IMG/VR virus record: IMGVR_UViG_3300042894_002597
Span: 1-29,617 of that record
Origin: a virus
Strand: one strand, 5' to 3'
Length of the DNA stretch: 29,617 bases
The notes under the pieces were generated by a model. That model did not search any database and was not told the origin of the DNA. It saw nothing but the letters and a program-made list of their open reading frames with translations. This document shows, in pieces, positions 4,723 through 15,705 of this stretch (positions within the stretch are counted from its first letter, which is position 1; each line of letters begins with the position of its first letter). The position numbers and the translations under genes are program-made.

Positions 4723-4944
4723 TTACCGCCACACATGCACCACTTTTTGTTCGTGCTGTGGATTCTCTTCGATGCGGAAACTCACGATGCCATCGAGCGC
4801 AGGATGTACAAAGATGATTGCATCCTCAGCGTTCAATCGCTCCAGGATCTCATGTTCGCTCGCTTTGAGGAGCCACAGGAGACCTTCTGGTTTTTCTTCT
4901 ACGCGTGTGATTGATGGTTTATTCTCAGCTGGTTTTCTCGCCAT
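4723..4944 (-). CDS. Small protein of unknown function, last gene of leftward operon
   Basis: This is a 73-residue protein with a charged N-terminus (many K and E) and a mixed alpha/beta-looking body containing DAIIFVHPALDG. I do not recognise a family. The ATG at 4944 lies inside the end of the HNH nuclease gene (46-nt overlap), with only a weak purine-rich stretch (GGGA) upstream, so expression probably depends on translational coupling. It is the most promoter-distal gene of the leftward operon and ends before the bidirectional terminator. Its hydrophilic composition and lack of a signal peptide suggest a cytoplasmic protein. Confidence 0.55.
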   Translation of the reverse strand: MARKPAENKPSITRVEEKPEGLLWLLKASEHEILERLNAEDAIIFVHPALDGIVSFRIEENPQHEQKVVHVWR

Positions 4945-5561
4945 AGTTGTTCCCGTTCTTTTTCCATGTCATGGTCAATGTGATGATTTTTGTGGCACCT
5001 GGCGCAGTAAGTTATCAGATCTGACATTTGTTCTGCGCCATGGCGTACGTAAGTATTATGGTGACAATGCAGATACTCAGTCGAACCGCATGACTGACAG
5101 GTGTGATTGTCACGCTCAAACACAGCTGCTCTAAGCTTCATCCACCGTGCTGTTTTTAGATACCTTGAATGGTAAACCCTTTTTTGTTCGTTGAGATTAT
5201 GAGGATATTCCGCACGTAACCGATAGTATTCCTCACGTAAATACTCACGGTTTCGGAAGTAGTCATTGTCTGGGTCATATCGAACCTGTGCGTAGATGTG
5301 CCCATCATCTGATGCGCGATTGCCATTTAGAATCTTCAGTGCATCGACCTTTTTAATAGGCTTGACCATGTGTCCACAACGTAAGCATCTCATTCGATAA
5401 TGATCTCGTCCAAGAGAATCTATCTTTTGTGTCATGACAGTAGACTCATGCAGACATTCGTCGAATGTTGGATACACGGGTTTGTGTTGCTTCTCCCATG
5501 CTTCAAGGTATTCAGTCCAAGGAGGAAGGTCTGCATGCGGCATCATGTCAGAGAGCTTCAA
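4899..5561 (-). CDS. HNH endonuclease with an additional zinc-binding motif
   Basis: The product is about 220 residues. Its C-terminal third carries a zinc-type HNH nuclease core: CQSC, then YLHCHHNTYVRHG with the catalytic His pair, then the second zinc pair CARCHKNHH. A separate CLRCGH motif near residue 60 suggests a DNA-binding finger upstream of the nuclease. I chose the TTG at 5561 because it overlaps the thyX stop (TTGA) and has GGAGG seven bases upstream; the alternative is the ATG at 5546. An upstream extension of the frame to 6074 is only a shadow of thyX. Its location in a metabolic operon rather than beside terminase suggests a free-standing homing-type or nicking enzyme. A related HNH protein is encoded at 13658-13984. 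Confidence 0.8.
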   Translation of the reverse strand: MKLSDMMPHADLPPWTEYLEAWEKQHKPVYPTFDECLHESTVMTQKIDSLGRDHYRMRCLRCGHMVKPIKKVDALKILNGNRASDDGHIYAQVRYDPDNDYFRNREYLREEYYRLRAEYPHNLNEQKRVYHSRYLKTARWMKLRAAVFERDNHTCQSCGSTEYLHCHHNTYVRHGAEQMSDLITYCARCHKNHHIDHDMEKEREQLWRENQLRINHQSHA

Positions 5562-6187
5562 GCCAGCGCCTCCATCGTGATTGGCAAGTGTTCCAACATA
5601 ATGTTCTGGACGCTTTGGGCGATGTCGCGATGCTCGAGCTGCGTGTCCTGGCGCGTTCGCAGTTGGACATAATGTATCCACGAGCGGATGCTTCCGCTCA
5701 TGTACATCGTGGTCGGAGTGCAAAGCGGCAGGACCATGCGAGCAGTCTCCGCAGATATGCCATGTGCGATGAGATCGCGATAGACGTCGGTCGCAAACTC
5801 GATTGATGACCCGACCAAATACAGCGCGTCCTGCTGCTCCTTGGTCAGTTCTTCTATCTTCGGTAGTGGGAGGCTGGATTGGCGATTGTGAGCGCCAGCG
5901 AGGCGCATCTCTGGGACCTCGATGTCCTCGACCACGGTCGCGTATCGTTGGCTGAACTCCTGGAAGGAGAACGACCGATGTCGGAGCAGCTGCGCGGCGA
6001 TGGCTCTCGTGGTCTTGACCTCGATGCACATCGACGCCATCTCGAAGATTGACCAGTGTCCGTGACTGACACAAAATCGAAGCAACCTCGTGACATCAGG
6101 ATTGTCCTGGTTCGCGGGGTTCGAGACCCTGGCGCAATACCCGATGACTGCTTCAGCATCGGGCGTTATCCATACGAGTTTTGTCAT
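5558..6187 (-). CDS. thyX: Flavin-dependent thymidylate synthase ThyX
   Basis: This 209-residue protein contains the diagnostic ThyX signature RHRX7S as R69-H70-R71 to S79, followed by QRY. Length and motif position match the family. ThyX makes dTMP from dUMP using FAD, NAD(P)H and methylene-tetrahydrofolate; phages carry it to raise thymidine supply during replication. The ATG at 6187 overlaps the stop of the DUF2829-like gene (ATGA), and its own stop overlaps the HNH start, so it is embedded in a tightly coupled leftward operon with the ERF recombinase. No sign of truncation is seen. Confidence 0.95.
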   Translation of the reverse strand: MTKLVWITPDAEAVIGYCARVSNPANQDNPDVTRLLRFCVSHGHWSIFEMASMCIEVKTTRAIAAQLLRHRSFSFQEFSQRYATVVEDIEVPEMRLAGAHNRQSSLPLPKIEELTKEQQDALYLVGSSIEFATDVYRDLIAHGISAETARMVLPLCTPTTMYMSGSIRSWIHYVQLRTRQDTQLEHRDIAQSVQNIMLEHLPITMEALA

Positions 6188-6456
6188 TCAACTATCTCCC
6201 AATCGGTTTGAAGAGTGTCATAAATGGCGCGACATATATGAAATGATGGTGTGTTATTTGGAAGTATGTCATCGAGTCTTTTTGCCAGTTCCTTCAAGTC
6301 TGGACTAGTATTTATAAATTCATTTATTCCAAATCCATCTTTTCTGGAATCAACTTTTGATAATGAAATCCATAGGTCTCCAGCATGAACATCCCATTCT
6401 TGCCGTTTGATTTTGTGACCTTTACGCATTGCCCTTACGGCTTGTGTCCATGTCAT
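6184..6456 (-). CDS. DUF2829/Tad2-like protein (putative Thoeris anti-defence)
   Basis: This is a 90-residue protein with the hallmarks of the DUF2829 family, whose founding member Tad2 blocks the bacterial Thoeris defence by sequestering its cyclic nucleotide signal. The N-terminus reads MTWTQAVRAMRKGHKIKRQEW, matching the family pattern of an amphipathic helix, G-x-x-h-x-R and then W. The C-terminus ends in TDWEIVE, matching the conserved terminal DW(E)-V. The central 50 residues are divergent and somewhat longer than usual. Its start overlaps the ERF stop and its stop overlaps the thyX start (ATGA on both sides). It is one of three proteins of this type in the genome (see 12833-13414 and 13404-13649). 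Anti-defence function is inferred from family only. Confidence 0.65.
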   Translation of the reverse strand: MTWTQAVRAMRKGHKIKRQEWDVHAGDLWISLSKVDSRKDGFGINEFINTSPDLKELAKRLDDILPNNTPSFHICRAIYDTLQTDWEIVE

Positions 6457-6998
6457 GTGTTAGGGTCCTCTTCTCCGATCACAAAGTGTGAACCGTTATG
6501 ATAGCCAGGTATCGGCTTCGGTGTTGGTGCGAGCTTACGCAGCGTGGTCTGCTGTGGCGGTCCTGGCTTGATCTGTGGCCGTGCCTGTTGCTGTTGTGCA
6601 GCTCCATTGCCATCGTCATCCTCATCGGATGCCAGCGACAACAATGCACTGAGGCTGTAGCGTCGACCATACGAGAGTGCGCTGCCGAATCCATGCGATG
6701 TCTGTTGCATCACTGGAACCTGCACGATACCAGCAATCCACTCACCTGAGCTGTGGATGACACGACTCTCGACCATGATGCTGGTGCTGTGCTCACCGTC
6801 GATGGTGTCCAGCACCGACTGCACAACGAACAGACCATGTTTCGCAAGCACAGGTCGAACGACCTCCATGATGGCATCGAGCGATGTGTACTTCGACCTG
6901 AACGCTGGATTCGTGGAATCCTTGATGATTGGCTTGATTTCAGCCTGTGCCTTGACCAGCGCTGGCGCAATAGCGCCTATTGTCTCCGACATTTTCAT
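6453..6998 (-). CDS. ERF-family single-strand annealing protein
   Basis: The 181-residue product matches the ERF recombinase family: NPAFRSKYTSLDAIMEVVRPVLAKHG in its N-terminal third (seen in two adjacent pieces) and GSALSYGRRYSLSALLSLASDEDDDGN in the middle. These are the family's most conserved blocks. A Gln/Pro-rich linker follows and the C-terminus is basic to neutral. ERF proteins anneal complementary single strands for phage recombination and concatemer or circle formation, usually with an SSB, and an SSB-like gene is present at 12244. The start at 6998 is preferred over the ATG at 6992 because GGGGG lies six bases upstream and it forms an ATGA overlap with the previous stop. Confidence 0.9.
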   Translation of the reverse strand: MKMSETIGAIAPALVKAQAEIKPIIKDSTNPAFRSKYTSLDAIMEVVRPVLAKHGLFVVQSVLDTIDGEHSTSIMVESRVIHSSGEWIAGIVQVPVMQQTSHGFGSALSYGRRYSLSALLSLASDEDDDGNGAAQQQQARPQIKPGPPQQTTLRKLAPTPKPIPGYHNGSHFVIGEEDPNT

Positions 6999-7728: not shown

Positions 7729-7758
7729 ATCCTAGCACGGGTTGACATACTGTGTCAA
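7729..7758 (-). promoter_or_regulatory. Leftward early promoter
   Basis: Read on the minus strand, TTGACA (7758-7753) and TAGGAT (7734-7729) are separated by 18 bases. Transcription would start near 7722, about 30 nt before the ATG at 7690. The -35 hexamer is one arm of the 7741-7759 palindrome. Confidence 0.65.
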
Positions 7759-7759
7759 C
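7741..7759. promoter_or_regulatory. Operator palindrome shared by two divergent promoters
   Basis: GTTGACA-tactg-TGTCAAC is a perfect 7+5+7 inverted repeat. Each arm contains a consensus TTGACA -35 box, one reading left and one reading right. A dimeric repressor bound here would block both promoters. The adjacent HTH gene at 7778 is the obvious candidate to bind it. Confidence 0.75.
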
Positions 7760-7771
7760 TGTGTGTATAAC
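7742..7771 (+). promoter_or_regulatory. Rightward promoter for the HTH gene, probably leaderless
   Basis: TTGACA (7742-7747) and TATAAC (7766-7771) are separated by 18 bases. The ATG of the HTH gene begins 6 nt after the -10 box, at 7778, which is about where transcription should start. The mRNA would therefore have little or no 5' leader. Confidence 0.7.
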
Positions 7772-7777
7772 GATGAC

Positions 7778-7975
7778 ATGATTTACGGACATACACAGGT
7801 GGATATCGCTGAGAAACTCGGCATCCACAAATCGGCAGTGTGTCGGATGCTCTCCGGCGCTCATGCTGTCAGACAGTCGACCGTCAAGCGCATCGCTGAT
7901 GCAATCGGTCGCAGTGAATACGAAGTGCAGCTGTGGATCCTGTGCAAGCGTACAGGACAGACTCTCCCTCAATAG
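7778..7975 (+). CDS. Cro/CI-type HTH repressor
   Basis: The 65-residue protein consists essentially of one lambda-repressor-like helix-turn-helix domain. HTQVDIAEKLGIHKSAVCRMLSG forms helices 2-3, with the recognition helix near HKSAVCRML, and a following helix contains STVKRIADAIG. Size and layout match Cro-like proteins. The frame is open upstream to 7742, but those codons lie over the promoter; the ATG at 7778 fits the -10 position. It is the first gene of the rightward operon that includes the sigma factor and replication proteins. It probably autoregulates by binding the palindrome at 7741-7759, also controlling the leftward operon. No C-terminal dimerisation or autocleavage domain is present. 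Confidence 0.8.
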   Translation: MIYGHTQVDIAEKLGIHKSAVCRMLSGAHAVRQSTVKRIADAIGRSEYEVQLWILCKRTGQTLPQ

Positions 7976-7999: not shown

Positions 8000-8260
8000 A
8001 TGGACATCAAACTTTCGTGCATCGTATGCAACAGACAAAACGTCGTGCCTTATGGCCGTGGACATCGCATCTGTGGAATCTGCTCACAGCGTGAGCTCAA
8101 GCGTGAGCGACGCCTCCGGACACAGCGCCGCATTCAGATGGTCGGCAGCTTCGTCCTGGTCGTTGGTGCTGTCTGGTTCTCGTGTCTGGTCGCATCCGAC
8201 TGGAACACACCAAACTCACCAGATCACCGTGCACACCAGGCGATGCAGTCTCGTGACTGA
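8000..8260 (+). CDS. Small zinc-ribbon protein with one membrane segment
   Basis: This is an 86-residue protein. The N-terminus has two Cys pairs, CIVC (about 7-10) and CGIC (about 25-28), typical of a zinc ribbon. A very basic stretch (RELKRERRLRTQRRIQ) follows, then a hydrophobic segment MVGSFVLVVGAVWFSCLVA long enough to cross the membrane once. The predicted topology is a cytoplasmic zinc ribbon anchored at the membrane by its positive flank. I recognise no family and assign no function. The ATG at 8000 is preceded by GGACTAGGA, which supplies an SD-like AGGA. Its stop lies inside the start region of the sigma factor gene. Confidence 0.65.
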   Translation: MDIKLSCIVCNRQNVVPYGRGHRICGICSQRELKRERRLRTQRRIQMVGSFVLVVGAVWFSCLVASDWNTPNSPDHRAHQAMQSRD

Positions 8261-9161
8261 CGCCATCACAACATGGTCACAGTATCGAGGTAGCAGACGC
8301 ACCAGCACCACAGGACTCCTGACGCCCGAGGAGGAGTTCTTTCTCGGGCGCATGGTCCAGGCTGGCACTGATAAAGATAAAGATCGAGCGACCGCTGAGT
8401 TTATTAATCACAACGTCCGCATGGTCAGCGCGATCGCGAAGAAGTTTCGTGGTCGTGGATGTGAACACGAAGACATGATCACGGATGGCATGCTCGGACT
8501 ACATCACGCGGTCCAGCGCTACGACCCGTCACTCGGTCACCGCTTCAGCACCTACGCCACGAACTGGGTCCGCCAGGCTATTGGGCGCGGTGTCGAGAGT
8601 CGTGGTCGAGACATCCGTCTACCGTCACACGCCATCGCTAAACTGTCTCACATCAGAGTGTCGCGCCAGGAGTACATCGTCAAGCACGGTGAGACTCCGA
8701 CACCGGCGGAACTTCTCGCGTACGTCCGTGAAGTTGTGCACACTTACCCGCGATACCTTCACAAGCAAATCGACTCACTGGATGTCAAGTCGCTGACGGA
8801 AATCCTCCAGCACGACGTCAAGCTGGTGTCGAGTATCGATGAACCGAACGCATACGGCCAAAGTCGATACGACTTCATGCCATCAGGTGAACCTCCTGTC
8901 GGTGACCGTCTAGACAGAGAGATTCTTTACGCGCAGCTGCGTACGGTCATGGAGGTCCTGACGGACCGCGAGATTGCATGTCTTCGCCTTCGCTTTGGGT
9001 TCGACGGCCTGTCGGATGGTCGCTCACTCGAGGACGTCGGAATCCTGATCGGCTACAGTCGCGAGCGCATCAGACAGATCCAGGTGCGCGCAATCGACAA
9101 ATTACGGGTGGCCGCTGGGGCTGATGTCTTGGCGGAGATATTTGAGAGGATGGAACTTTGA
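8253..9161 (+). CDS. Sigma-70 family RNA polymerase sigma factor
   Basis: The product is about 302 residues if it starts at the GTG at 8253, which overlaps the preceding stop; the frame opens earlier but those codons are shadows. It has the full arrangement of a primary-type sigma. Region 1.2-like LLTPEEEFFLGRMV comes first. Region 2 includes the core-binding and -10-reading segment around RFSTYATNWVRQAIGR. Region 3 covers IRLPSHAIAKL to ETPTPAELLAYV. Region 4 includes LTDREIACLRLRFG and the -35-binding helix-turn-helix EDVGILIGYSRERIRQIQ. It should redirect host core polymerase to phage promoters. It sits between the repressor and the replication genes, so it is likely made early to switch on later genes. 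Sigma factors of this completeness are unusual in a 29-kb phage. Confidence 0.93.
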   Translation: MTDAITTWSQYRGSRRTSTTGLLTPEEEFFLGRMVQAGTDKDKDRATAEFINHNVRMVSAIAKKFRGRGCEHEDMITDGMLGLHHAVQRYDPSLGHRFSTYATNWVRQAIGRGVESRGRDIRLPSHAIAKLSHIRVSRQEYIVKHGETPTPAELLAYVREVVHTYPRYLHKQIDSLDVKSLTEILQHDVKLVSSIDEPNAYGQSRYDFMPSGEPPVGDRLDREILYAQLRTVMEVLTDREIACLRLRFGFDGLSDGRSLEDVGILIGYSRERIRQIQVRAIDKLRVAAGADVLAEIFERMEL

Positions 9162-12243: not shown

Positions 12244-12744
12244 ATGGGTTTCTTTTCAAACGCCACGTTCAACGATGGCGCATCACAGTTCGAAGCAGCT
12301 GTCGCAGGCTCTTATGTCTGTCGTCTTGCAAACGTCGAGAGCATCGACCGACCATCGTACGATGATCCGAATGTTATGCTTCCGAACTTCAAGTTCACAT
12401 TTGAAACCACTGAGTATGGCGATTCCAACAGCAACGCGTTTCGCTTCGTCAAGTTTACGCGCCAGGGCTATGGTTCCGATAAGGCAGCACTCACGATCCT
12501 GCTTGACGGCATGCTCGGACGCCGCTTGACACAAGCAGAGTTTCATAACCTTGACATCGACTCGCTCCTGGCTAAGGAGTGGATGGTCACTGTCGACTCG
12601 AAGCTCAACACGCGTGGTTATCAAACCAACGCCATCGTGTCCGTTTCACCAGTCAGTGCCAAGAAGAAACTGACCAAGATCGCACAGCCAGCGATCAAAA
12701 CCGATGACATCGAAGACCCCTTCGGTGAAGACGCCAGCGAGTAA
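12244..12744 (+). CDS. Probable single-stranded DNA-binding protein
   Basis: The 166-residue product has a mixed beta-rich body with blocks SYVCRLANVESIDRPSYDD, PNFKFTFETTEYG, FRFVKFTRQGYG and TILLDGMLGRRLTQAEFHNLD. I associate this pattern with a phage family annotated as SSB/OB-fold-like replication proteins. It ends in an acidic tail (DDIEDPFGEDASE), the classic feature by which SSBs contact partner proteins. Residues 135-155 are basic. I chose ATG 12244, with SD AAGGAG upstream, instead of the in-frame TTG at 12121, which lies in the promoter. Its location next to the origin and its independent promoter fit a single-strand binder working with the primase, helicase and ERF protein. The identity is probable, not certain. 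Confidence 0.6.
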   Translation: MGFFSNATFNDGASQFEAAVAGSYVCRLANVESIDRPSYDDPNVMLPNFKFTFETTEYGDSNSNAFRFVKFTRQGYGSDKAALTILLDGMLGRRLTQAEFHNLDIDSLLAKEWMVTVDSKLNTRGYQTNAIVSVSPVSAKKKLTKIAQPAIKTDDIEDPFGEDASE

Positions 12745-12776
12745 CCATCTCCCGGTTGCCAACGACTCGCTGACGA

Positions 12777-12813
12777 ACCAGGCACATCATCCGAACGGTG
12801 TGCCTGGTCTTTT
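12777..12813 (+). terminator. Rho-independent terminator
   Basis: ACCAGGCACA (12777-12786) and TGTGCCTGGT (12799-12808) form a perfect 10-bp stem with a 12-nt loop, followed by CTTTT and a further T-rich stretch. It lies between the SSB-like gene and the packaging module, so it separates early and late transcription. Confidence 0.85.
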
Positions 12814-12832
12814 ACTTTGAAGGGGAGAATCA

Positions 12833-13414
12833 ATGTCGAAGAACACAAAGCTCGAGGAGCGAACACAACTCCTGGTGCAAATCAAGGAAATCAGAGCTGC
12901 TGGTAACAGCATCAGTCGAACCGCGCAGATCATGAAGATGACACGCGGGACAGTCCAGCGATGGATCAATGAAGAAAAGCCAGACAGGGTAGTCAAGAAA
13001 ATGGACCCGTACATTTCACTCGATGAAAAGACCGCGACCGTTATCAAGTGGGCGGAGCTCATCGCAAGCGGTGAGACACGAAGCAAAGCAGCCGAAGTCG
13101 TCGGTTATCCAATAATGATGATAAATCGATGGATGATGAGCGAACCTTCACTGCGTGTGGAGTTTCAGGAATCTGTCGGGAAGAAACAAAACAATCATGG
13201 TGGCCGCAAATCCTTCGAGTCAATCATGACAGATGTACGCGCAGGACGTCCTGTGTGGCGTGATGGCGCTCGTTTCAAGCTTCAGCTGGTCGAATCTGCA
13301 TTGATGCGATACGAGCTCGATGGCGCTAACGTGTGGAGGTGCAAGGGTTTTGCAACGTTATCAGGCAATGATGTCCTGGCGCGAGATTGGCTGGTAATGA
13401 CAAATGAAGTTTGA
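12833..13414 (+). CDS. HTH protein fused to a DUF2829/Tad2-like C-terminal domain
   Basis: The product is 193 residues. Residues about 15-46 contain one helix-turn-helix (SISRTAQIMKMTRGTVQRWI), and residues 75-108 a second (ETRSKAAEVVGYPIMMINRW), in the style of terminase-small-subunit or transposase HTH units. Residues 127-189 then match the DUF2829/Tad2 pattern: SFESIMTDVRAGRPVWRDG at the N-side and NDVLARDWLV at the end. I know of no standard family with this order, so the fusion is notable. Strong SD GGGGAG precedes ATG 12833. It is the first gene after a terminator and overlaps the next Tad2-like gene by 11 nt. It may be a DNA-binding regulator whose C-terminal pocket senses a nucleotide ligand, or a decoy terminase-like protein; both are inference. 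Confidence 0.65.
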   Translation: MSKNTKLEERTQLLVQIKEIRAAGNSISRTAQIMKMTRGTVQRWINEEKPDRVVKKMDPYISLDEKTATVIKWAELIASGETRSKAAEVVGYPIMMINRWMMSEPSLRVEFQESVGKKQNNHGGRKSFESIMTDVRAGRPVWRDGARFKLQLVESALMRYELDGANVWRCKGFATLSGNDVLARDWLVMTNEV

Positions 13415-13649
13415 ACACGTAATACAACACTTGATGCATGGCAAACCGATCACACGCGTATGCTTTGACCACGATGTCTACATCCGATACTCCGACCTTT
13501 TCGAAGCTTTCGTCATGCACACCGGGACAGAGTCCAAGACTCTACAAGGCCTCACACTCGATCCTGAATCGCTGTTCGCGACTGACTGGATGTGGGGCGA
13601 AGATCACCCGGTCAAGGATGAGATCACATGGACACGGACAACATCGTAA
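13404..13649 (+). CDS. Second small DUF2829/Tad2-like protein
   Basis: This 81-residue protein starts MKFEHVIQHLMHGKPITR, fitting the family pattern of a short amphipathic helix followed by G-x-x-h-x-R. It has LTLDPESLFATDWMW toward the end, fitting the conserved D-x-L-x-A-x-DW block. A charged tail of about 17 residues follows. It overlaps the upstream HTH-Tad2 fusion gene by 11 nt, and the AAGGAG for the HNH gene lies over its stop, so the three are probably co-translated. If it acts like Tad2 it would bind a cyclic ADP-ribose-type signal, but several aromatic positions differ (the Arg is followed by VCF, not a Trp), so ligand and target may differ. No clear SD is present; translational coupling is likely. 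Confidence 0.6.
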   Translation: MKFEHVIQHLMHGKPITRVCFDHDVYIRYSDLFEAFVMHTGTESKTLQGLTLDPESLFATDWMWGEDHPVKDEITWTRTTS

Positions 13650-13657
13650 GGAGCATC

Positions 13658-13984
13658 ATGGCGAAGCCATGGTCCAACACCTACAGTCTGCTCAAGGCCA
13701 TCGGAGCGTCCAGTGACCAGGTCGATGAAGCATGGCGCGACTACCGTCGCAAGTACATGCGGAGTCAGCGCTGGCAGGACATTCGGACGAAGGCGCTTGA
13801 GCGGTCAGGTAGAACGTGTGAGCAGTGTGGCCGTCGACAGGACGACGGCTACAAGCTCGATGTCCATCACATCACCTACATCAGACTCGGTGGCGAACTG
13901 ATGGAGGATGTGCAGGTCCTGTGTTACTTATGCCACGGACAGCTGCACTACAGGCGCAGAGTGCGCCAGGATGAGACAGAATAG
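13658..13984 (+). CDS. HNH endonuclease of the packaging module
   Basis: The 108-residue product has the zinc-HNH core CEQCGRRQ, LDVHHITYIRLGG, DVQVLCYLCHGQLH. A short N-terminal helical part contains YMRSQRWQDIRTKALERSG, a common lead-in for phage HNH enzymes. Position directly before TerS and TerL matches the HNH-TerS-TerL module described for cos-type siphoviruses, where HNH activity assists terminase cutting; so cos-style packaging is a reasonable inference. I chose ATG 13658, with AAGGAG at 13648-13653, over the in-frame ATG at 13628. It resembles the leftward-operon HNH nuclease (4899-5561) in the same core, suggesting distant paralogues. Confidence 0.85.
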   Translation: MAKPWSNTYSLLKAIGASSDQVDEAWRDYRRKYMRSQRWQDIRTKALERSGRTCEQCGRRQDDGYKLDVHHITYIRLGGELMEDVQVLCYLCHGQLHYRRRVRQDETE

Positions 13985-13988
13985 CATC

Positions 13989-14378
13989 ATGGCACGAGGT
14001 AATACAACAGAACCTGAGATTCTCGCACAGGTCGAATCGGCTTTGATCGCTGGTCAAAGTCCTTCGGTTATTGCACGGTCGTGTGGATTACCACGCACGA
14101 CCATCATCTCGATCAGGGACAGAATGACGACTCCTGTCGAACAGAGTCGACATGACATCACCACGACGATTCTTCCGACAAAGTCTCTCGATGATCTACT
14201 GACATCTGTGCTCGAGGACAGCCTGAAGGCGCTACAGGCGATAGCACGTACAGCGCAGAGTGAGCGTTACATCAATGGCCAATCAGCTGCCCAAATTGCA
14301 GCTCTCCATGAGCGCATTGCGAACTTCTCGATACAACTTCTCTCCGCCGCAGCCGAACCAAGCCAGGACAACAACTAG
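13989..14378 (+). CDS. Probable terminase small subunit
   Basis: The 129-residue product has an N-terminal helix-turn-helix (residues about 20-45, GQSPSVIARSCGLPRTTIISIRD), a linker, and a C-terminal helical region suited to oligomerisation. This is the usual layout of small terminase subunits that recognise packaging sites and recruit TerL. It lies directly between the HNH nuclease and the large subunit. An in-frame ATG at 13971 would lengthen it by six residues; neither start has a strong SD. Its 3' end overlaps the large-subunit frame by up to 104 nt. Assignment rests mainly on HTH plus position. Confidence 0.7.
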   Translation: MARGNTTEPEILAQVESALIAGQSPSVIARSCGLPRTTIISIRDRMTTPVEQSRHDITTTILPTKSLDDLLTSVLEDSLKALQAIARTAQSERYINGQSAAQIAALHERIANFSIQLLSAAAEPSQDNN

Positions 14379-15705
14379 CGCGCAGACAGCTCTGTGTTAT
14401 CTCGACTACCTTCGAGAGACTCTACCGCCTGGCTGGTCTTTTACAGCTCGGCATCTCATCGCCATCGCGTCGCACCTTGACGCTGTGGAGCGTGGTGAGA
14501 TTGACAGACTCGCGATCCACATGCCGCCACGTCATGGCAAAACAGAGACAGTCACGGTCCGCTACGGCGCCTATTGCATCGAACGAGATTCAAGCGCGAA
14601 CGTGTTGGTCACTGGCTATAACGAGCGCATCGCGAGACGCTTCTCGCGTAAGTCCAGACAGATCGTTTCGTCCAGGACAAAGCTCGCGAAGGACAACGCC
14701 GCACAGGATGAGTGGAGCTTACCGGAGGGCGGAACCTTCATGGCGCGTGGTGTAGGCAGTCCTCCGACCGGCGTCGGCTTCAAGCGCATCATCATCGATG
14801 ACCCGATCAGGAGTCGTGAGGATGCTGAGTCTTCGCTGTATCGTGACAAAGCATGGGACTGGTACACGGACGACCTCTACACGAGGCTCGAGCCTAAGGG
14901 CGCTCTCATCATTGTCTCGACCAGGTGGCATCACGACGACATCACCGCTCGCGCAATCAGCTCGGAACCTCATCGATGGACCGTGCTGAACCTTCCAGCC
15001 ATAGCGGAGGAGAAGGACCAGATCGGTCGAATGCCTGGCGAAGCTTTGTGGCCTGAACGATACGACGTCAAGGAACTCGGACGCATCAAGGAGGTCATGG
15101 TCGCGAACTCCGGGGACTACGGGTGGAGTGCTTTGTACCAGCAACATCCGACACCTCGCGAGGGTTCGTTCTTCAAGAGTGACCGGATCACCATCGAGCA
15201 TGCCACGCCGAACCTCACGAAGATGTCCCGTGCCTGGGACCTCGCAGCCACAGCTGGAAGTGGTGACTACACGGTCGGGGTCAAGATGGGCCGTGATGCC
15301 GATGGCCGCATCTGGATACTCGATGTCGTGCGTGGCCAGTATGACACCGACCAGCGCGATAAAGTTATAAAGCAGACAGCTGCTCTCGATGGACGTGGTA
15401 TCAGGATCCGACTACCGCAGGACCCGGGCCAGGCTGGCAAGAGTCAAGCGATGCACATGCTCCGACTCCTGCATGGTAGTGCTGTGACAGTCCTGCCGGT
15501 GACAGGTGCGAAGGATGTGCGCGCTGAACCGTTCGCATCTCAGGTCGCTGGCGGAAACGTGTACATGGTCGCAGCTTCGTGGAATCGCGAACTCCTGGAC
15601 GAAATGCGGACATTCCCGCTCGGTAAGAATGACGATATCGTCGACGCATTGACTGACGCCTACGACGAGCTCGTCGGTCGTGGCGGTGGGTGGGGTGCAG
15701 TCTAG
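14275..15705 (+). CDS. Terminase large subunit (packaging ATPase/nuclease)
   Basis: This is a protein of about 476 residues. The N-terminal ATPase has Walker A MPPRHGKT (near residue 83), the adenine-region motif LVTGYNERIARRFSRK, Walker B FKRIIIDDPI and the coupling motif STRWHHDD. The C-terminal RNase H-like nuclease begins at RAWDLAATAGSGDYTVG (catalytic Asp in AWDLA) and includes the late acidic pair NDDIVDALTDA. This is a complete TerL that drives DNA into proheads through the portal. The start is uncertain: GTG 14260, ATG 14275 and ATG 14308 are all in frame and lack clear SDs; all overlap the small-subunit gene, implying coupling. Confidence 0.92.
   Translation: MANQLPKLQLSMSALRTSRYNFSPPQPNQARTTTSAQTALCYLDYLRETLPPGWSFTARHLIAIASHLDAVERGEIDRLAIHMPPRHGKTETVTVRYGAYCIERDSSANVLVTGYNERIARRFSRKSRQIVSSRTKLAKDNAAQDEWSLPEGGTFMARGVGSPPTGVGFKRIIIDDPIRSREDAESSLYRDKAWDWYTDDLYTRLEPKGALIIVSTRWHHDDITARAISSEPHRWTVLNLPAIAEEKDQIGRMPGEALWPERYDVKELGRIKEVMVANSGDYGWSALYQQHPTPREGSFFKSDRITIEHATPNLTKMSRAWDLAATAGSGDYTVGVKMGRDADGRIWILDVVRGQYDTDQRDKVIKQTAALDGRGIRIRLPQDPGQAGKSQAMHMLRLLHGSAVTVLPVTGAKDVRAEPFASQVAGGNVYMVAASWNRELLDEMRTFPLGKNDDIVDALTDAYDELVGRGGGWGAV

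Follow-up and report, generated by a model that had tools for sequence, protein, structure and literature searches.

The DNA analysed here, all of which we call the window, is the IMG/VR virus record IMGVR_UViG_3300042894_002597, a stretch of 29,617 bases, and three of its open reading frames, at 12833-13414, 13404-13649 and 6184-6456, encode Tad2-like proteins. An earlier note, made from the letters of the sequence, had placed one copy in the early leftward operon and two in tandem before the packaging genes, and the ORF positions and the profiles of the neighboring genes agree with this arrangement. The features on which the following account is based are:

12833..13414, plus strand: HTH-Tad2 fusion gene, 193 aa (ORF, HTH_23 and HTH_28 matches, AF2, Foldseek)
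12851..12976, plus strand: HTH module 1 of the fusion, residues about 7-48, allelic and mosaic (Pfam, AF2)
13019..13177, plus strand: HTH module 2 and the helix after it, residues about 63-115 (AF2)
13211..13411, plus strand: Tad2-like domain of the fusion, residues 127-193, with the fold at 128-188 (profiles, AF2, Foldseek)
13404..13649, plus strand: stand-alone Tad2-like protein, 81 aa (PF11195, PDB profile search, AF2, Foldseek, linkage)
6184..6456, minus strand: Tad2-like protein of 90 aa carried as cargo in the ERF-thyX slot (PF11195, PDB profile search, slot census)
6453..6998, minus strand: ERF recombinase, slot border (PF04404, 4.4e-29)
5558..6187, minus strand: thyX, opposite slot border (PF02511, 8.2e-43)
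12777..12808, plus strand: intrinsic-terminator-like hairpin, separating the SSB-like gene from the HTH-Tad2 gene
13628..13984, plus strand: HNH endonuclease gene, overlapping the 3' end of 13404-13649 (PF01844, 3.1e-7)
13989..14378, plus strand: probable small terminase gene (HTH and helices), immediately 5' of TerL (weak HTH_23, position)
14260-15705: TerL

The start of 13404-13649 overlaps the end of the fusion gene by 11 nt, and the two rightward genes, referred to below as the pair, sit between the replication genes and the packaging genes. On their 5' side lies a gene that we read as SSB-like, itself without a profile match, followed by the hairpin at 12777-12808, which is kept in the standard-type upstream DNA of relatives with changes that, judged by eye, are mostly G-T-compatible. 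On their 3' side follow the HNH gene, the probable small terminase gene and TerL. The HNH gene at 13628-13984 and a second one at 4902-5558 are similar to each other, and the latter, which follows thyX, is missing from some relatives.

The three Tad2-like proteins had been linked by a shared motif, G-x-x-h-x-R followed after a variable middle by a closing (A/T)-x-DW, and this description fits two of them. The motif is literal in the fusion (GRPVWR...LARDW) and in the 13404-13649 protein (GKPITR...FATDW), but the 6184-6456 protein closes with QTDW, ATDW being found in its relatives. Residue-shuffled ORFs of the window give 0.07 motif matches per window, and the one further match in the window, in TerL, looks accidental. 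Profiles are the better test.

By profiles, by relatives and, for both rightward proteins, by AF2 models and Foldseek, all three proteins are members of the Tad2-like (DUF2829, PF11195) superfamily, as the earlier note had claimed. The 6184-6456 protein matches PF11195 with 25.1 bits against a cut-off of 25, the only one of the three Pfam results in the window above the gathering score, and a PDB search with its family profile returns SPO1 Gp34.65 first (E=0.02). Several stand-alone Tad2-like genes in distant and hotspot relatives also lie above the PF11195 cut-off, reaching 37.6 bits. The 13404-13649 protein itself scores below the cut-off (20.6 bits, E=6.7e-4), and PF11195 is matched by 16/16 aligned members of its family, at best with 7.2e-7; the top seven matches of the family profile in the PDB are all Tad2/AcrIIA7 chains (best E=0.0059). 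For the fused domain, Pfam, PHROG and NCBIfam scans with the window protein alone gave no Tad2 match, and single-sequence PDB searches with either rightward protein returned no matches. PF11195 matches appear in 5/21 members of the fusion family at E<=0.1. In whole-record scans the fused domains of relatives cover profile positions 2-72 of 73 (E=2.5e-4) and 2-73 (E=5.7e-4), and those of L149, L160, L093 and L092 match nearly the whole profile with 15.0-16.7 bits, under the cut-off of 25. A PDB search with the fusion-family profile includes six Tad2-family chains among 14 matches, at the expected places and individually weak. Profile-profile comparison relates the fused domain to the Tad2-like set (94.2%, E=1.1e-7) and to the 13404 family (89.1%, E=2.3e-6), and the scores of the fused domain and of the 13404 family far exceed those of a control of 40 column shuffles (41.3, 34.8 and 54.0 against shuffled maxima of 16.5, 18.8 and 13.9, the first of each being for the fused domain and the Tad2-like set). 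The 6184 family is likewise above its shuffled controls, with partial overlap (22-26 against at most 17). The strong divergence of the three copies noted earlier is supported; the different ligands that the note derived from it would be a possible consequence.

The structural models agree with the profiles. In the AF2 models, all of monomers, the 13404-13649 protein (pLDDT 87.5) and the C-terminal domain of the fusion both have the Tad2 fold of alpha1, a small beta sheet, a short helix and a closing DW strand, the elements following in the same order in both. Foldseek places SptTad2 and Myroides Tad2 first for the 13404 model with probability 1.00, the next among the matches listed being at about 0.1-0.16; with E-values of 0.07-0.09, the claim is carried by the probability and by the distance to the next matches. 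For the fusion, modeled with pLDDT 79.7 and a pTM of 0.38, which leaves the relative orientation of its domains uncertain, the first PDB match is SPO1 Tad2 (probability 1.00, E=0.008), and the best BFVD matches are mostly proteins named Thoeris anti-defense 2-like. We looked specifically for the opposite outcome, either the absence of a match to the DUF2829 profile or models without the Tad2 sheet; both rightward families match the profile and both models contain the sheet.

Tad2 proteins form tetramers and bind their nucleotide signals at the interfaces of the subunits, and in SptTad2 an insertion binds cyclic dinucleotides. Like SPO1 Gp34.65 (PF11195, formerly DUF2829), the proteins described here have alpha1, G-x-x-h-x-R, beta strands, a short helix and a closing DW strand, but the identity by structural alignment is about 16% and one window copy is fused behind HTH modules. 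MoTad2, SptTad2 and HgmTad2 (AcrIIA7) take ranks 1-2 when the 13404 model is compared by structure (TM 0.51-0.68), whereas the 13404 protein has a short middle region and only 15-17% identity to them. The Tad2 proteins of known function act as sponges for gcADPR, His-ADPR or cyclic dinucleotides (PMC12043709, PMC13299392), with a ligand pocket built by the loops beta1-beta2, beta3-beta4 and beta4-alpha3 and by alpha3 (PMC12043709). In the fused domain the most conserved positions are R143, D163-G164-A165 and D180-V-L-A-x-D-W; R143, G164, A174, D180, A183, D185 and W186 are conserved even at 25% identity, as nearly are D163, A165, V181 and L182. With the pocket loops of PMC12043709 placed by secondary structure rather than by superposition, conservation averages 0.79 in the pocket-type loops against 0.69 elsewhere, a weak result that 2/62 circular shifts also reach (about 0.03). 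We regard this conservation as a suggestive hint that the fused domain may bind a ligand.

The fused copy had been described as joined to a double HTH, and this is upheld by matches above cut-off to HTH_23 (28.9 bits, cut-off 24.6) and HTH_28 (28.2 bits, cut-off 25). The AF2 model contains two three-helix HTH units, with helices within residues 7-48 and 63-103, then a further helix and the C-terminal Tad2 fold; the helices of the second region are at 63-78, 83-90, 94-103 and 105-115. The number of modules in the fusion family varies from one (L088, L093) to three, the latter in a 246-aa variant encoded by L029:4923-5663, and such variation is as expected for a genuine DNA-binding part. The tethering to DNA that the earlier note considered is possible. 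Among the relatives there are two alleles of module 2, which occur in varied combinations with the alleles of module 1, and the association of HTH alleles with flanking DNA decays within a few hundred bases. Recombination that swaps the DNA-binding part and leaves the Tad2 part in place would give this picture. Indeed, among 38 distinct close relatives pN/pS is 0.46 in HTH1 (residues 1-57), 0.20 in HTH2 and 0.16 in the Tad2 domain, and it is 0.13 in the 13404 protein (43 sequences). The Tad2 parts of the pair are under purifying selection, and the contrast again shows a retained Tad2 part beside an exchanged DNA-binding part.

The fusion family occurs in 179 IMG/VR stretches, of which the best 80 were kept. 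In 70/70 distinct loci with downstream DNA, a homologue of the 13404 gene lies 3' of the fusion, within 60 nt in 61/70 and at up to about 650 nt in the rest. Seven loci have an extra Tad2-like gene of about 66 aa between the two, and extra tandem copies occur, e.g., in L043, L085 and G039, the last with HTH-Tad2, Tad2 and Tad2 consecutively and a fourth copy elsewhere in the record. A distant clade (L088, L094, L092 and others) carries a single-HTH fusion together with 13404-like and 6184-like genes in one operon, which in L088 and L094 also includes thyX. The conservation of the pair in every relative argues for a core role over that of ordinary anti-defense cargo. A protein search of 50,697 cultured phage records returned no relative of the fusion, of the 13404 protein or of the distant single-HTH fusion, and no HTH-Tad2 fusion was found in the published literature searched; a query of GTDB genomes with two conserved peptides gave candidates, none of which was confirmed as a relative of the fusion. 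A Tad2 fusion as such is not new, since CPT_Parlo_009 of Serratia phage Parlo (239 aa) has a C-terminal Tad2 domain (PF11195, residues 166-234) behind an N-terminal part, but unlike that of the fusion the Parlo N-terminal part has no HTH match.

The 6184-6456 copy behaves differently. The earlier note had seen the three copies as one small expanded set, and while the number stands, they are not equal members of it: two form a fixed, conserved pair and the third is cargo of a slot whose content turns over. The 6184 gene sits between ERF and thyX, and this interval is a cargo hotspot in the phage lineage. A pooled profile finds one or more Tad2-like genes in 34 of the 67 slots for which both borders are present; 17 slots are empty. 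The Tad2-like genes form seven mutually dissimilar groups at 35% identity, of which one, of 104 aa (MKFELAFEAMRHG...), matches the pooled profile only and is tentative because Pfam does not see it; without it there are six. Altogether the slot has at least 12 gene groups (relatives L167-L245; window 5558-6998), the other cargo being an HNH-like gene, a DUF3307 protein and unknown genes. The 6184 type occurs in the ERF-thyX slot only in the window, and the proteins closest to it (69-72%) belong to the distant clade. Such turnover and the scattered distribution of the 6184 type are typical of exchangeable accessory genes, probably for anti-defense, and the 6184-6456 protein most likely acts as a plain Tad2 sponge against the nucleotide signaling of the host. 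The thyX gene adjoins Tad2-like genes in both clades (L088:5139-5765, L094:5136-5759, window 5558-6187) despite the different operon arrangement.

A search of 12680-12833 for a sigma-70-like promoter gave no match. At 8241-9161 the window encodes a sigma-70 family protein (regions 2 and 4) and at 7742-7975 a small HTH protein of the Cro/C1 type, and with a sigma factor of its own the phage may use other promoters, its own promoters being likely. A search for an operator, in which DNA words were compared with the HTH alleles for covariation in a small sample, found none upstream or within about 6 kb.

Based on these data, we tentatively propose, with somewhat less than even confidence, that the pair is a core, DNA-bound and probably nucleotide-responsive regulatory module placed before the packaging operon. 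Specifically, the fusion would bind phage (or host) DNA via its HTH modules, and its Tad2 domain would oligomerize with itself and perhaps with the free 13404 partner. The DNA binding of the fusion would then change once it takes up a small molecule derived from a nucleotide, or through titration by the 13404 partner, and the packaging/late operon, which starts behind the terminator at the pair, would thereby be regulated by that molecule. The data above show the Tad2 fold and family, the HTH modules and their mosaic nature, the obligate linkage, the purifying selection and the turnover of the slot, whereas the oligomerization, ligand, DNA target and direction and effect of regulation assumed here are inferred. 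A more specific form, which we consider unlikely, is that the fusion is a phage transcription factor whose sponge-derived domain detects an immune nucleotide of the host, the free Tad2 protein setting the threshold and the late programme being adjusted.

A rival reading, which we rate as rather unlikely, is that both rightward proteins are plain anti-defense sponges, with the HTH part serving to tether or concentrate the sponge on phage DNA or to provide Aca-like autoregulation. To our knowledge Aca (anti-CRISPR-associated) proteins carry no Tad2 domain; they resemble the pair in being phage HTH genes beside a small putative anti-defense gene, and the free Tad2 gene always lies 3' of the fusion as an anti-defense gene does after an aca gene, but here HTH and Tad2 domain are in one polypeptide. 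Nor does the DNA 5' of the fusion covary with the HTH alleles; it is unchanged across them, so that autoregulation via the adjacent intergenic region is not supported, which counts against it and is not decisive. The extra tandem Tad2 copies would suit a sponge, and sequestering nucleotide signals is what every functionally characterized Tad2 does (PMC12043709; PMC13299392 for SPO1 Tad2 and MoTad2). Against this reading, no relative lacks the pair and its sequence evolves slowly, in contrast to the slot copies.

There are two further readings. It is rather improbable that the fusion has an accessory task in packaging or replication, as a small-terminase-like recognition protein whose Tad2 domain is for oligomerization only. 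In favor of this, TerL is the fourth gene after the fusion, small-terminase PHROGs match the HTH part weakly (3218 at 4.2e-4; 1482 at 8.4e-5 for L085), and allelic HTH modules would fit changing pac sites; yet conservation peaks in the pocket-type loops and not in the core only, and the search to 6 kb that found no covarying DNA site applies here too. The fusion was rejected as first choice for the small terminase itself, the separate HTH gene 13989-14378 right before TerL being the better candidate, and the distant clade also has its own before TerL. Least probable to us is that the ligand of the Tad2-like domains is a metabolic nucleotide connected with the metabolism of thymidylate or DNA precursors. 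A conserved core role is compatible with such a ligand, and the proximity to thyX in both clades would favor it, but the thyX neighbors are mixed cargo, 17 slots have thyX and no Tad2, and adjacency alone is weak.

Tad2 is known as a passive sponge, and the conserved HTH fusion with its obligate free partner suggests that the same pocket may also read a signal. Were the sensor form of our proposal true, the phage would read the host alarm and adjust its late programme. The question raised, which nucleotides bind these pockets and whether binding alters DNA occupancy, is a testable one, and the rapid exchange of the seven Tad2-like groups in one lineage makes the ERF-thyX slot a natural collection for finding new ligands. 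The commonest cargo of this slot is a small HNH-like gene (MTSECYYCG...) with 30 members, e.g., L180:4546-4845 and L092:2370-2645, and in the distant phage L092 it separates the 13404-like gene from the HTH-Tad2 gene.
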